Of a stretch of 64,000 nt of DNA, positions 21,020-59,623 are shown piece after piece. The DNA is from Mumia sp. zg.B17 (lineage in GTDB: Bacteria > Actinomycetota > Actinomycetes > Propionibacteriales > Nocardioidaceae). The stretch is taken from positions 248,001-312,000 of the forward strand of contig NZ_JAHWCI010000006.1 in assembly GCF_019550915.1 (NCBI RefSeq), in the 5' to 3' direction. Under the pieces are notes generated by a model. The model did no database searches. It saw only the letters and a program-made list of their open reading frames with translations, and had not been told where the DNA came from. Numbering within the stretch: the stretch's first letter is position 1; the number at the start of each line of letters is the position of its first letter. The translations under genes and the position numbers were made by a program.

Positions 21020-21870
21020 AGTGTGGCACGGGGGAACGCCATCAGCCGCATCTTCCCGATCGGCTGACCGCAGATCTCGCAGTTGCCGTAGGTGCCGGCC
21101 TCGATCCGGGCGAGGGCCTTCTCCACCTGGAGGAGAAGCTCGCGGTGGTTCGCGGCGAGCGACATCTCCGCGTCGCGCTCGAGGGACGTGGAGCCCACGT
21201 CGGCCTGGTCGTTGCCCGCCCCGTCTACTCCCCCGCTGAGGAGGTCGGCGAGTCCACGCTCGGCCACCTGGATCTCGTCCAGGAGTCGGGTCCGGTCGGC
21301 CTCCAGCGCGGCTCGGACCTCCGAAATCTCGTCGGCGGACCAGGGAGCCTCGTCGGCCTTGACAGCCAAGGAGCCGGTCGTCGTCGGGTTCGTCACAGTT
21401 CTCGGTGCTCCTGTCGTACGGGGTCGCTTCGCGGCGCCCTTGGCTGGTGTCTTCTTCGCGGTCGCCTTCTTGACCGGCGCCGCCTTCTTCGCGGTCGCCT
21501 TCTTGACCGGCGCCGCCTTCTTCGCGGTCGCCTTCTTGACCGGCGCCGCCTTCTTCGCGGTCGCCTTCTTGACCGGCGCCGCCTTCTTCGCGGTCGCCTT
21601 CTTGACCGGCGCCGCCTTCGTGGCGGTCGTCTTCTTAGCCGCCGGCGACTTCTTGGCGGTCGCCTTCTTAGCCGGCGCCGCCTTCTTGGCCGCCGGCGCC
21701 TTCTTCAGGGTCGCCTTCTTGGCCGGCGCCGCCTTCGTGGCGGTCGTCGTCGTGGCCGGCGCCTTCTTCGAGGGCGTCGCCTTGCTCGCCACCTTGCGTG
21801 CGGCACCCTTCACGGCTGCCACGCCGCGCGACGCGGCACTGCGCTTGCTGGTCTTGGTCGTGCTCGCCAT
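20983..21870 (-). CDS. DksA/TraR-type zinc-finger protein with histone-H1-like basic tail
   Basis: A 295-residue two-part protein. Residues 1 to about 160 are almost only Lys, Ala, Pro, Thr and Val, with five exact [11 protein letters not shown]-type 11-mers, like the tail of histone H1 or HupB. Residues 175-295 form a DksA/TraR-like coiled coil ([24 protein letters not shown]) and a four-Cys zinc finger (C264, C267, C285, C288; CEICG...CMTC). Such proteins bind RNA polymerase in the secondary channel; the tail should bind DNA or RNA. ATG 21870 has a GAGGGG site. It lies directly upstream of lspA. Confidence 0.88.
21451..21615. repeat. Five perfect 33-bp tandem repeats (basic tail)
   Basis: Five identical 33-nt units begin at 21451, 21484, 21517, 21550 and 21583, followed by degenerate copies to about 21730. 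Each encodes an 11-residue Lys/Ala/Pro/Thr/Val unit. Perfect identity at the DNA level suggests recent expansion or homogenisation. Confidence 0.95.
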
Positions 21871-51264: not shown

Positions 51265-52545
51265 GTGGCTGACGTGGTGGTGGTCGGGGGCGGGTTCGCG
51301 GGCATCTCTGCTGCGGTCCGCCTGGCCAAGATGCGGCACCGCGTCGTCCTGCTCGAGGCCGACGACCGTCTCGGTGGGCAGCTCCGGCCGTACGAGGCGG
51401 GAGGCTGGTCCTTCGACCACGGGTGGTCGGAGCTGACGCTGCCCGCGACGGTGCGTGACCTCTTCAAGAAGTCCGGCCGGCCGCTCGAGCGCGTCCTCGA
51501 CCTCGAGCCTCTTGCCGTCGCCCGGCGGCATGTGTTCGACCGCGACCTCGTTCTCGACCTTCCCTCCGGCAGCCGGGGAGCCCAGACCGACGCGATCGAC
51601 GCCGTGCTCGGCCGTGGCACGGGCGAGCGGTGGACCCGGTGGCTCGACGGGTTCGACGACGCGTGGGAGGTGCTGCGCCACGTCGCGCTCGGCCGGCCGC
51701 TGGCCGGACGCGACGACTTCGACCGTGAGCAGTGGCGGACGCTGCGGACGCGCCTGTCGCTCGAGCGCGCGGCTCGACGCGGTCTTCGCGATCCTCACCT
51801 GCGCGCGCTCGTGCTCGACCGCCACCGGCTCGACGGGCAGCAGCCCCGTTCGATGCCCGCCTTCCTCGGGGTGTACGACCTGGTCGAGCGTTCGTTCGGC
51901 CGCTGGCGGATCGCCGGCGGCTCGACGGCCCTCCTCGCGGCGCTCGAGCGACGGCTGGAGGAGCGGCGGGTGGAGATCAGGCTCGGCGTGCGTGCCCACG
52001 ACGTGACAGGGACCGACGTCGTCGACGGTGTCCTCACCGACGACGGCAGGGTCGGCGCGGACGTCGTCGTGTGGGCAGCCCCGACCGGACCGGGCGGGCG
52101 GTCGGAGACCGACGCCCTCCCCCGGGTGCCGTCGGCGGTCACCTACCTCGGCCTGGGCCCGTACGCCCCCCGGCTGGCTCAGCAGACGGTCGTCCACGGC
52201 ACCCCCGTCCGGGTCACGCCCAGCGCTACGCACACGGGCGACGGGCAGGCATGGACGGTCGAGCACCTCGCCGCCGAAGACCCCGTGCTGACCTTGCGCC
52301 GGGTCGGGATCGACGTCGGCGACCACGTCGTCCACCGGGAGGACGTGAGCCCGGTCGACGTGGCGCGCCGCCACGGGGCGCGCCACGGCTGGCAGTGGTC
52401 GGGGTGGCGTACGGCGTTCACGCTCCCCGGGGTCGGGCCGGAGCGACGCGGCCTGCTCCGGGTCGGCGTCAACGCCCACCCAGGCCCGTCGACCGAGCTG
52501 GTCGCACTCGGGACCGCCGCGGCGGCCGAGACCCTCCGACCATGA
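51265..52545 (+). CDS. FAD-dependent oxidoreductase, amine oxidase/phytoene desaturase-like
   Basis: A 426-residue flavoprotein. The FAD-binding start is ADVVVVGGGFAGISAAVRLAK followed by VVLLEADDRLGGQL, the second dinucleotide motif of amine oxidases and carotenoid desaturases. The middle part is divergent, and the C-terminus LVALGTAAAAETLRP closes the FAD site. The substrate is unknown; a prenyl lipid is possible because a polyprenyl diphosphate synthase gene lies 1.3 kb downstream, but that is inference. GTG 51265 appears leaderless. Confidence 0.85.
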   Translation: MADVVVVGGGFAGISAAVRLAKMRHRVVLLEADDRLGGQLRPYEAGGWSFDHGWSELTLPATVRDLFKKSGRPLERVLDLEPLAVARRHVFDRDLVLDLPSGSRGAQTDAIDAVLGRGTGERWTRWLDGFDDAWEVLRHVALGRPLAGRDDFDREQWRTLRTRLSLERAARRGLRDPHLRALVLDRHRLDGQQPRSMPAFLGVYDLVERSFGRWRIAGGSTALLAALERRLEERRVEIRLGVRAHDVTGTDVVDGVLTDDGRVGADVVVWAAPTGPGGRSETDALPRVPSAVTYLGLGPYAPRLAQQTVVHGTPVRVTPSATHTGDGQAWTVEHLAAEDPVLTLRRVGIDVGDHVVHREDVSPVDVARRHGARHGWQWSGWRTAFTLPGVGPERRGLLRVGVNAHPGPSTELVALGTAAAAETLRP

Positions 52546-52555
52546 GGCCGACCGC

Positions 52556-52834
52556 TCAGCGGCGCCCGTGGGTGCCGGTGTGGCTCCACTCCTGACGGAG
52601 ACCGGTGACGAGCGAGCCGAGATAGTGGGGACGCTCGATGCCGTCGTCCTCGACGCCACAGGTCGCCACCCCCAGACCGACGCTCACCAGGCCGCTGGTC
52701 CACCACGCGACGACGAGGAGGCCCCCGTGGACGCCTCCGTGGAAGTACAGGTAGGCGCAGCCGACGAACACGACGGCCCCGATCAGACCGCCGAGCACCA
52801 GCATCCCCCGCTTGCGGTGCTGCTCCCGAGTCAC
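52556..52834 (-). CDS. Small two-helix membrane protein, unknown function
   Basis: A 92-residue protein with a basic start (REQHRKRGM), two hydrophobic helices (about 10-29 and 35-55), and a polar end. It is not recognised as a named family. GTG 52834 is the first start after the upstream spacer. It converges on the FAD oxidoreductase with a 10-nt gap. Confidence 0.6.
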   Translation of the reverse strand: MTREQHRKRGMLVLGGLIGAVVFVGCAYLYFHGGVHGGLLVVAWWTSGLVSVGLGVATCGVEDDGIERPHYLGSLVTGLRQEWSHTGTHGRR

Positions 52835-52899
52835 AACGTCAGGATCGCACCGCTGGGGTCCACGCGCCGGACGCAGGCGATGGCCGCGCGTGTCGCAGG

Positions 52900-53790
52900 T
52901 CACATCACGGGGAGCGGAGCGAGGCTCTCGTAGATGCGCCGAGTCGCCGTCGAGCGGTTGAGCGTGTAGAAGTGCAGGCCCGGCGCCCCGCCCTCGAGGA
53001 GCGCGTCGCACAGCTCGGTCGCGACCAGCGTCCCCTCCGCACGCAGGCCGTCGGGATCGTCGGCCCACGGCTCCAGCCGTGAGACCACCGACGGCGGCAC
53101 GTCGTGACCCGAGAGCTCGGCCATGCGGGAGATCTGCTTGAGGTTCGTGATCGGCATGATGCCCGGCACCACGGGGATCTCGCATCCTCGGGCGCGGACG
53201 CGCTCCACGAGCGCGAAGTAGTCCTCGGCGAGGAAGAAGAAGTCGGTGACCACGAACTCCGCCCCGGCGCGGGCCTTGGCCACCACGACGTCGGCGTCCG
53301 CCTCCAGGCTGGAGGACTCGCGGTGTCCCTTCGGGTACGCCGCCGCACCGACGCAGAAGGTCCCCAACCCCGCGACCAGGGCGACCAGCTCGTCGCCGTG
53401 GTCGAGGCCGCCCGGGTGCGGCGTCCAGGGCGCACCGGGACCTCCGACCGGGTCACCGCGCAGCGCGAGGATGTTGCGCACACCCGCGGCCGCGTACTGG
53501 CCGAGCACCGTACGAAGGTCGTCGCGCGACTGGCCGACGCAGGTCAGGTGCCCCATCGGGCGGAGCGTGGTCTCGGTGGCGATGCGCTCGGTGATGCGCA
53601 CGGTGCGGTCACGGGTGGACCCGCCGGCGCCATACGTCACCGAGACGAACGTCGGGTGCAAGGGCTCCAGCTCGCGGATCGCCGTCCACAGCGCGCGCTC
53701 GCCGGCGTCGTTCTTCGGCGGGAAGAACTCGAACGAGAAGCTCGGCGCCGAGGCGGCGATGTCCTCGCTGAGACGGCGGGCGGTCGACAT
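52900..53790 (-). CDS. metF: Methylenetetrahydrofolate reductase
   Basis: A 296-residue FAD enzyme that reduces methylene-THF to methyl-THF for methionine synthesis. Motifs: FSFEFFPPKND (catalytic Glu), FVSVTYGAGGSTRDRT, HLTCVGQSRDD, NILALRGDP, DFFFLAEDYF and VPGIMPITNLKQISRM. ATG 53790 is preceded by TTAAAG at 7 nt, so it may be leaderless. It diverges from the polyprenyl synthase, as the M. tuberculosis Rv2172c and Rv2173 genes do. Confidence 0.96.
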   Translation of the reverse strand: MSTARRLSEDIAASAPSFSFEFFPPKNDAGERALWTAIRELEPLHPTFVSVTYGAGGSTRDRTVRITERIATETTLRPMGHLTCVGQSRDDLRTVLGQYAAAGVRNILALRGDPVGGPGAPWTPHPGGLDHGDELVALVAGLGTFCVGAAAYPKGHRESSSLEADADVVVAKARAGAEFVVTDFFFLAEDYFALVERVRARGCEIPVVPGIMPITNLKQISRMAELSGHDVPPSVVSRLEPWADDPDGLRAEGTLVATELCDALLEGGAPGLHFYTLNRSTATRRIYESLAPLPVM

Positions 53791-57549: not shown

Positions 57550-58437
57550 GTGCCGAACCCCTCCCCCTCTGCCCCCGTCACGCACGCCCGCAACCCTCTG
57601 GGGGCGCACATCGCCGTCGGAGCCGGGCTCGCCCGAGGTGCGTGGACGACCATGCGCGCCCTCGGGGCCGACACGCTCCAGGTCTTCGCCGGGAACCCGC
57701 GTGGATGGGCGGCGTCGGCGGGCAACCCGGGCCAGGACGCCGCGTTCCGCCAGCGGTGCGAGGACGAGGACGTGCCGGCGTTCGTCCACGCGCCGTACCT
57801 GGTGAATCTCGGCAGCCCGAACCCCACGACGTACGAGAGGTCGATCGCCGCGGTCGCGCACAACCTCGGACGCACCGCCGCCATCGGGGCGCAGGGTCTG
57901 GTCGTCCACACCGGGTCCTGCGTCGACGACGGGGCGTACGACACGGGCCTCAAGCAGGTGCGCGAAGGGCTTCTTCCGCTCCTCGACGCGCTCCCGGATG
58001 ACGGCCCACGACTGCTCCTCGAGCCCACCGCCGGACAGGGGCGATCGCTCTGCGCCCGGGTCGACGACCTCGAGCCCTATCTCGACATCCTCGAACACCA
58101 CCCTCGCCTCGGCATCTGCCTCGACACGTGCCACGCCTTCGCGGCCGGCGAGCCGCTCGACGAGCCAGACGGGGTCGCCACAACCCTCGAACGCCTGGTG
58201 AAGATCGCCGGGCCGGGTCGGCTGGCGCTGGTCCATGCCAACGACTCGATGGACGTGCGGGGGAGCTTCAAGGACCGGCACGAGCGGATCGGGCAGGGGC
58301 ACATCGGGACGGAGGCGTTCGCGGCGCTGCTCGCGCACCCGGCGACTGCGGGCGTGCCGTTCGTGCTCGAGACACCGGGGGGCGACGCCGCGACCGCCGA
58401 GGATCTCGTCCTGCTCGCCGGGCTCCGCGACCGCTAA
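57550..58437 (+). CDS. nfo: Endonuclease IV (AP endonuclease family 2)
   Basis: A 295-residue Zn enzyme that cuts DNA 5' of abasic sites. The metal ligands appear as VHAPYLVNLGS, VVHTGSC, LLEPTAGQG, CLDTCHAFAAG, LVHANDSMDV, DRHERIGQGHIG and VLETPGG. The fold starts at GAHIAVGAGLARGAW. GTG 57550 is taken because it follows a -10 box by 7 nt; ATG 57541 lies inside that box. The TAA stop touches the 21-bp repeat array. Confidence 0.95.
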   Translation: MPNPSPSAPVTHARNPLGAHIAVGAGLARGAWTTMRALGADTLQVFAGNPRGWAASAGNPGQDAAFRQRCEDEDVPAFVHAPYLVNLGSPNPTTYERSIAAVAHNLGRTAAIGAQGLVVHTGSCVDDGAYDTGLKQVREGLLPLLDALPDDGPRLLLEPTAGQGRSLCARVDDLEPYLDILEHHPRLGICLDTCHAFAAGEPLDEPDGVATTLERLVKIAGPGRLALVHANDSMDVRGSFKDRHERIGQGHIGTEAFAALLAHPATAGVPFVLETPGGDAATAEDLVLLAGLRDR

Positions 58438-58685
58438 CTTCCTCCGCCCGCGGGTCACCCTCTCGCAGTCGCGAGTCACCATCTCGCGCCCGCGAGTCAC
58501 AGTCGAACTCCGGGAACTGACCCACGAACACCAAAGACTGACCCGCTAGCGCAAGAAACTGACCCGCGGGCGGAAGGGGGTGACCCGCGGGCGGAAGGAG
58601 GTGACCCGCGGGCGCAAGAAACTGACCCGCGAGCGGAAGAGGGTGACCCGCGAGCGCCAGGGACTGACCCGCGGGCAGTCAGCGA
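58437..58685. repeat. 21-bp repeat array: 3 inverted and 8 direct units filling a convergent spacer
   Basis: Eight head-to-tail units of exactly 21 bp, consensus TGACCCGCGGGCGGAAGAGG plus one base, start at 58518, 58539, 58560, 58581, 58602, 58623, 58644 and 58665. On the left three units of the same sequence run in the opposite direction (58437-58457, 58458-58478, 58479-58499), joined by 18 nt (58500-58517). The first unit starts on the last base of the nfo stop and the last covers the pyridoxal kinase stop. The two arms can pair into a long cruciform or RNA stem. Each unit contains CCCGCGGG or a variant. In frame it would read (V/L)TRGRKK. Confidence 0.92.
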
Positions 58686-59536
58686 AGGCGCTCGACCGCG
58701 AACTCCATCGGCGGGTCGGCGATGACATCCTGCGCGGCCACCACTTCCATCTCCCGCGCCCCGGTACGGCGGGTGTGCTCGAGGATGCCGAAGATCGACG
58801 AGGCGACCGTGCCCAGCGCACCGGGCACGTCCATGTCCGACTGCAGGAGGCGGCCGAGGAACATCGACGTCGTCGCGTCGCCGGATCCGGCGACCACGTT
58901 CATCTCCAGCTTCGGCGTGGTCACCACGTACGCCCCCGTGTCGTCGACGGCCACCATCGAGATGGTCTTCTCGCTGGGGTCGAACACCTCGACCGAGGTC
59001 ACGAGCACGATGCGGGGTCCACGCGCGCGCAACGCGTCGACGGCCGCCAGCAGCGCATCGAGGGAGCCGACCTCGGCGCCGGTCAGCAGCTCGAGCTCGA
59101 ACTGGTTGGGCGTGGTGATGTCGGCCGCGGGGACGATCCGGTCGCGCATCAGCTCCGCGATGCCCGGTCGCACGTAGACGCCGCGTCCGCGGTCGCCGAT
59201 CACCGGGTCCGCGCAGTAGACGGCACGTGGGCTGGCCGCCTTGACCTGCGCGACGGCATCGAGGATGACCTCGGCGATCTCAGGCGCCCCCTGGTAGCCG
59301 GAGAGGACCGCGTCGAGGGAGGGGAACACTCCCCGCTCGGCGACACCGGTGATGACGTCGGCGACCTGGGACGCCTCGAAGACGGTGCCACGCCAGACGC
59401 CGTAGCCGGAGTGGTTGGAGAACGCGACCGTGTTGACCGGCCATGTATCGACGCCGAGGCGCTGGAGCGGGAAGACGGCCGAGCTGTTGCCTGCGTGGCC
59501 GTACGCGACGGAGGACTGGATCGAGAGCACCTGCAC
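58679..59536 (-). CDS. pdxY: Pyridoxal kinase (PdxY/PdxK type)
   Basis: A 285-residue ribokinase-fold enzyme that phosphorylates pyridoxal to PLP. Motifs: VLSIQSSVAYGHAGNSSAVFPLQ, GYQGAPEIAEVI, YCADPVIGDRGRGVYV, TPNQFELELLTG and VAGSGDATTSMFLGRLL, the last holding the anion hole and catalytic Asp. GTG 59536 follows TACGCT by 7 nt. The stop is inside the last unit of the 21-bp array. Confidence 0.93.
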   Translation of the reverse strand: MQVLSIQSSVAYGHAGNSSAVFPLQRLGVDTWPVNTVAFSNHSGYGVWRGTVFEASQVADVITGVAERGVFPSLDAVLSGYQGAPEIAEVILDAVAQVKAASPRAVYCADPVIGDRGRGVYVRPGIAELMRDRIVPAADITTPNQFELELLTGAEVGSLDALLAAVDALRARGPRIVLVTSVEVFDPSEKTISMVAVDDTGAYVVTTPKLEMNVVAGSGDATTSMFLGRLLQSDMDVPGALGTVASSIFGILEHTRRTGAREMEVVAAQDVIADPPMEFAVERLR

Positions 59537-59543
59537 GAAGCAC

Positions 59544-59549
59544 AGCGTA
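59544..59549 (-). promoter_or_regulatory. -10 element of a leaderless promoter (pyridoxal kinase)
   Basis: TACGCT, 7 nt before GTG 59536. Confidence 0.5.
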
Positions 59550-59623
59550 CGACCTGTCGAGCCGACGGGCGGTGCCGACCGACTCTCCACCGACGAGGCC
59601 GGGCGGCCTGCGGCGTACGGAAG

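Follow-up and report, generated by a model that had tools for sequence, protein, structure and literature searches.

A dialect-forming family of phased DNA repeats in Mumia and other Nocardioidaceae, with a probable partner nuclease

Overview

The convergent junction between the genes nfo and pdxK in Mumia sp. zg.B17 is occupied by an array of 21-bp repeats, which we analysed within a 64,000-nt stretch of DNA (the window, whose coordinates are used throughout). The array belongs to a real, dispersed and dialect-forming repeat family that has a probable partner nuclease. We read it as one copy of a Nocardioidaceae repeat family akin to REP/RAYT systems or homing endonucleases, a reading to which we give a probability of about 0.48. 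The initial annotation of the array, made from the letters of the window, is partly supported. Among the three roles that it offered, a selfish repeat family seeding in gene ends fits best and a protein-binding array is compatible with that reading, whereas a bidirectional terminator is weakened by the existence of arrays inside coding sequence.

The array between nfo and pdxK

The annotation described eleven units of 21 bp, three leftward and eight rightward, with no drift in period, and the unit starts indeed step by exactly 21 nt inside either arm (Table 1). It also took copies of one unit to fill the whole spacer, which measures 241 nt from the end of nfo at 58437 to the end of pdxK at 58679. 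The arms do span this spacer, but the 16 nt at its centre contain no unit and the innermost unit of the right arm (start 58517) is degenerate. The array reaches both stop codons, as had been claimed: the left arm abuts nfo, and the outermost right-arm unit (start 58664) covers the final two codons of pdxK, including the stop. The two inner units of the left arm carry the CTC core GTGACTCGCG.

The repeat signal is far above chance. In the organism's own genome (G000, 3.86 Mb in 18 contigs) a 17-base unit pattern with at most one mismatch gives 96 matches against 16 for its reversed control, and a three-unit pattern at the same tolerance gives 73 against none. The array is not a CRISPR, in agreement with the annotation; a CRISPR combines near-identical repeats with unique spacers, whereas the apparent spacers here are variants of one species consensus. 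The annotation also held that it is not a simple terminator, and a simple consensus scan of 58300-58850 found no intrinsic terminator, in which a T run comes directly after a GC-rich hairpin. No Rfam covariance model matched the same interval up to E 1, a simple scan of the spacer region revealed no promoter-like site, and the array had no match among plasmid and phage records.

Table 1. Coordinates of the repeat array and its neighbouring genes in the window.
Feature	Positions	Strand	Details
nfo, deoxyribonuclease IV	57550..58437	+	convergent neighbour; start codon uncertain; TIGR00587, 188 bits against a cut-off of 130
Left arm	58438..58500	-	three 21-bp units pointing left; starts 58438, 58459, 58480
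Centre separating the arms	58501..58516		16 nt, no unit
Right arm	58517..58684	+	eight 21-bp units pointing right; starts 58517, 58538, 58559, 58580, 58601, 58622, 58643, 58664
pdxY/pdxK, pyridoxal kinase	58679..59590	-	convergent neighbour; NF004398, 356 bits against a cut-off of 292

A dispersed family with outward-facing arms

The annotation would have given up a general element had the sequence been unique to this locus and absent from close relatives; it is neither, and the check does not refute the idea. G000 holds 19 loci in which successive GTGACCCGCG-type cores are separated by 11-nt spacers, and a search of this and related genomes found the family in all six Mumia species (G000 to G005). 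A strict pattern search of the relatives had yielded just one further genome. On wider genome contigs a strict scan gave no match and a relaxed one at least 112 stretches, many of which are, in our judgement on reading them, 7-bp repeats or other sequences.

Arms face outward almost without exception. This holds for all 12 two-armed loci of G000, for all 30 in Mumia as a whole and for 14 of the 16 in other Nocardioidaceae, both exceptions being in one genome (G164); the single Frankiaceae locus points outward, the single Amycolatopsis locus inward. An additional set of 20 loci contains 11 that are two-armed, all of them outward. The main locus count omits L126 and L154 (both outward, their genome G114 being sampled via other loci) and the plus-strand chain of L258, which lies inside a gene call. 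L240, L261, L237 and L235 are absent from it by a stricter unit rule, and no arm was found at L062, L063 and L222. The inward-facing arms are those of L309 and L308 in G164, a genome that also holds the most divergent copy of the nuclease described below, and of L147 in Amycolatopsis. Many loci are single-armed, several have a whole gene between their arms, and G005 has arrays of two and three units.

Core, period and dialect

Across 150 units from the 19 loci of G000, positions 1-10 (GTGACCCGCG) look conserved and positions 11-21 far less so, a contrast owed in part to the selection of units by their match to the core. When the strict register is followed without this filter, the internal slots with at most two core mismatches number 75 of 100 in G000, 37 of 50 in G002, 20 of 26 in G001, 20 of 28 in G003 and 6 of 9 in G004. 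It is partly shown that the core is the conserved part of the unit, a stretch of about 10 bp, GTGACYCGCG or GTGACYCGTC, that recurs with a period of 21 or 22 bp, equal to two helical turns. At the outer end of an arm the last unit retains the core, with 9.58 of 10 positions matching in units chosen by core match; its variable part, which runs into coding sequence, is not retained and matches at 4.61 of 11 positions against 7.95 in middle units.

Each genome uses mainly one dialect. With any spacing from 11 to 41 bp allowed, and with no control matches, the pairs counted from the matches listed are 21 bp apart in 76 of 79 cases in G000, 14 of 15 in G001, 4 of 5 in G002 and 3 of 4 in G005, and 22 bp apart in 22 of 23 cases in G003 and in all 16 in G004. 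G000 and G002 mostly have C as the sixth base of the unit, the other four genomes (G001, G003, G004 and G005) mostly T; among the loci counted, one in G003 deviates from its own genome.

Orthologous loci form 15 groups, and one junction, for instance, is common to G000, G002, G003 and G004, each with its own dialect. One group depends on homology of dnaE2, and the Aeromicrobium array there sits elsewhere. G002 and G004, the closest pair of the three species sharing most loci (flank identity 85.4%, against 82.4% for G000 and G004), differ in period as well as in core. Beside pdxK, the junction carries 22-bp CTC units in G004, one or two units of CCC type in G002 and none in G001, G003 and G005; the gene facing pdxK is not nfo in G001, G002, G004 and G005. 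These flank identities led us to abandon a sister relationship between G000 and G004, which had been suggested by a second nfo copy in G000 (G000:C9:393992-394867, in L085). The protein of this copy is 95% identical to that of G004 and 81% to that of the window nfo; an apparently broken eamA-like gene follows it, and transfer is possible.

Placement relative to genes

Of the 69 Mumia loci, 44 lie at convergent, 18 at co-directional and 3 at divergent junctions; another 3 fall within gene calls, and 1 sits at a contig edge. The convergent share (44 of 65 classifiable loci) compares with 55 of 353 junctions at large (p 6e-21), a base rate drawn from two 200-kb stretches and the window with gene calls by a simple codon-usage script, in which errors are possible. 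Among the 100 Mumia arms outside gene calls, 79 have a gene 3' end as the nearest feature on their outer side, and in 66 of these it is no more than 12 nt away. In 13 arms the TGA of the innermost unit terminates the gene on the inner side, and at two places in G002 a single core constitutes the entire stop-stop junction, TGA-CCGCGAG-TCA.

Some arrays lie inside coding sequence. The error-prone DNA polymerase gene dnaE2 contains four 21-bp units in G000 (L064:2861-2944; protein NF004225, 1461 bits) and three 22-bp units in G004 (L228:2702-2766), where the linker sequence differs from that of G000. The array-bearing DnaE2 linker is 15 residues shorter in an Aeromicrobium homologue, and a search for an empty dnaE2 site in two 200-kb stretches of G002 and G005 found just a 27% homologue, taken for DnaE1. 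In G004 a two-armed 22-bp array (L246:2535-2655) likewise falls within a reading frame of 591 aa that has no NCBIfam match.

Elsewhere in the window, a convergent spacer of 354 nt (52545-52900) holds two core-like sites, one of them exact, outside any array. A 33-bp tandem repeat at 21451-21687 (7.2 copies, 93% match) and two neighbouring 21-bp tandem repeats of unrelated sequence at 1362-1503 are both probably coding.

The partner nuclease and wider distribution

One gene family adjoins the arrays or sits between their arms in 11 genomes, and such bracketing recurs in five neighbourhoods. Its product joins an AbiEi-antitoxin-like part to a nuclease part and is the probable partner enzyme of the arrays, its gene lying between two arms in many genomes. 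E201, D233, H251 and D260, which we take to be the EDxHD active-site residues, are invariant in all eight nuclease sequences. The predicted structure has the Vsr/EDxHD catalytic-domain fold, and its model resembles the Vsr-like homing endonuclease I-Bth0305I (PDB 3r3p) and Vsr (PDB 1cw0). In G004, a species with short arrays, the nuclease reading frame is interrupted (L242:2561-3500). The nuclease had no match among phages and five weak matches (29-35%) among plasmids. In the two of these five that were looked at (L351 and L352), no repeat with the array core lies beside the nuclease-like gene; in L351, TRF reports a single imperfect 21-bp repeat some 1.5 kb past the gene.

A three-core pattern with free gaps matched 59 of 341 genomes of the bacterial family against 22 of 341, as counted from the matches listed, for its reversed control; the search patterns contained the core, and arrays with another core were not detectable by them. 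Among the matches listed, the genomes with many hits (in genera g20 and g7, taken for Aeromicrobium and Nocardioides) each have mainly one dialect, of 21 or 22 bp. An 18-bp run in G127 is one exception and may be a coding repeat. The family appears to occur in Aeromicrobium also, and probably in Nocardioides.

Weighing the explanations

Certain observations weigh against the reading of the array as one copy of a REP/RAYT-like family. Copying of whole or recent unit types between loci was not detected. Locus-wise vertical inheritance of units was not detected either, in seven orthologous pairs from G000 and G002 (0.506 against 0.520, p 0.86). Since neither process is visible, the shared consensus is either old or kept by selection, and here the copying model has its weakest link. 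In the unfiltered register, moreover, the contrast in information between core and variable part is weaker than in the filtered units.

The alternative that survives best, though we consider it unlikely, is an array of binding sites that serves the host, in which a resident DNA-binding protein (perhaps the AbiEi-like part of the nuclease, or some other factor) covers the phased cores and forms a polar fence against read-through or, at convergent gene ends, a chromosome organiser. Such an array would account for repeats spaced by two helical turns in more than one genus, the outward polarity, the retention of the same junctions in several species despite differing units, and the variable positions, which act as independent, motif-like sites. 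It is harder to reconcile with the patchy occurrence among the 341 genomes given above, with a window in which only one of five convergent junctions holds an array, and with the dnaE2 array, which is placed along the direction a fence would be expected to block.

We regard as improbable a bidirectional transcription terminator, or an mRNA 3'-end hairpin, formed by the complementary arms. The long cruciform or mRNA stem proposed in the annotation can be drawn at the window locus, where the array folds strongly on both strands (z -6.0 and -7.0), the placement is convergent and no T-tailed terminator was found in the spacer. By eye, a long hairpin of different sequence is also visible in some of the convergent spacers of G002 and G005 (L311-L330) that measure about 60-90 nt; several convergent spacers there are shorter than 15 nt. 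The stem is not a general feature of the family. The two arms of a locus resemble each other no more closely than do left and right arms taken from different loci (p 0.91 and 0.78), and this lack of co-variation, together with the genes that lie between arms, led us to reject a long stem as the selected feature. Single-armed loci, and the arrays inside dnaE2 and the 591-aa frame, further disfavour a terminator role. The minimal hairpin CGRGTCA-TGACYCG, considered as a candidate for a widespread terminator, occurs 4-7 times per genome against 0-2 in the control.

Poorer still are the prospects of a passive satellite, generated without an enzyme when compact stop-stop junctions in which the core occurs by chance undergo slippage, the nuclease locus being just another such junction. 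It is consistent with the two- and three-unit arrays of G005, with the single-core stop-stop junctions and with the greater likeness of adjacent than of distant units in G000 (0.669 falling to 0.561), though not in G002. It leaves unexplained why one core recurs at unrelated junctions and in genera beyond Mumia (in searches that required the core), why period and sixth base are near-uniform within each genome, and why one nuclease family is bracketed repeatedly.

A translated heptad-repeat protein has almost no probability: the open (V/L)TRGRKK frames noted in the annotation are present on both sides, two to each arm in the window, but a 21-bp period holds a frame open trivially, and we rejected a coding repeat because the 22-bp period of G003 and G004 breaks the frame and so refutes translation as a general explanation.

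Comparison with known systems

In the portions of PMC3733652 drawn on here, the REP/BIME unit is palindromic, 20-40 bp long and tagged by GTAG or CGTC. As described in portions of that source and of PMC2817692, these repeats and RAYT (together, REPtrons) resemble the array family in being short, dispersed, located at gene 3' ends that are often convergent, and sometimes intragenic; the enzyme gene is flanked by the same repeats, and families are species-specific. The arrays, too, exist in many dispersed copies, mostly downstream of genes. By inspection their consensus GTGACCCGCGAGCGCCAGAGA lacks the REP unit: it is a direct repeat with a non-palindromic core, a 21/22-bp period and outward arms, and its partner is a predicted Vsr-like nuclease, unlike RAYT, a tyrosine HUH transposase. 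Because its behaviour is REP/RAYT-like but the unit fails the REP definition, we do not file the family as REP.

I-Bth0305I is, according to its PDB entry, a mobile intron protein, whereas the array nuclease is joined to an AbiEi-like part and bracketed by arrays; it differs from the AbiEi antitoxin (PDB 6y8q) in that a nuclease domain follows the AbiEi-like part. Dispersed non-coding satellites of prokaryotes, in the portions of PMC6749651 consulted, are tandem repeats scattered in intergenic DNA, with satellite transposition inferred for one species; unlike those described there, the array family has outward arms, abuts stop codons and is linked to a nuclease. Among the matches listed, the literature gave no account of the array or of dispersed repeats accompanying DUF559 nucleases, coverage of subscription journals being thin.

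Plasmid iterons are direct repeats of about 20-22 bp, and the ends of Tn7 and Mu have several transposase sites of about 22 bp in inverted orientation. Both recall the array as direct repeats of about 20-22 bp, but at the window locus, whose neighbours are nfo and pdxK, neither a replication gene nor a transposase gene was seen, and by eye no transposon termini or target duplication either.

Proposed mechanism and significance

Beyond membership in such a family, we tentatively propose, at well short of even odds, that the two-part AbiEi-like/Vsr-like nuclease is a selfish element of a new class. It would recognise helically phased cores, bracket its own gene with them, and by cutting and repair seed, expand and rewrite non-autonomous arrays throughout the genome, with an enzyme and a site dialect evolving separately in each species. 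In the main reading given at the outset, the nuclease would bind the phased cores and cut or nick nearby, and repair from other arrays would then add, remove or renew units. Dispersal, period, outward arms, placement, dialects and the nuclease between arms are shown here, as is its predicted fold; recognition, cutting, copying by repair and selfishness are inferred. Copies would survive where the harm is small, in protein linkers and at convergent stop codons; in the form TGA-CYCGCGR-TCA, the core itself resembles two stop codons meeting in a compact junction. Where two arms share a junction, as between nfo and pdxK, a transcript 3'-end hairpin could arise as a by-product.

If this is true, enzyme-tied repeat families would extend beyond those of the HUH transposases (REP/RAYT), and the little-studied DUF559/MTES_1575 nucleases would acquire a substrate in the cell together with a role open to testing. 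Convergent spacers of a kind that can be mistaken for terminators or coding repeats would be explained as well, and the strict period and genome-wide dialects would constitute a natural record of joint change in an enzyme and its DNA site.
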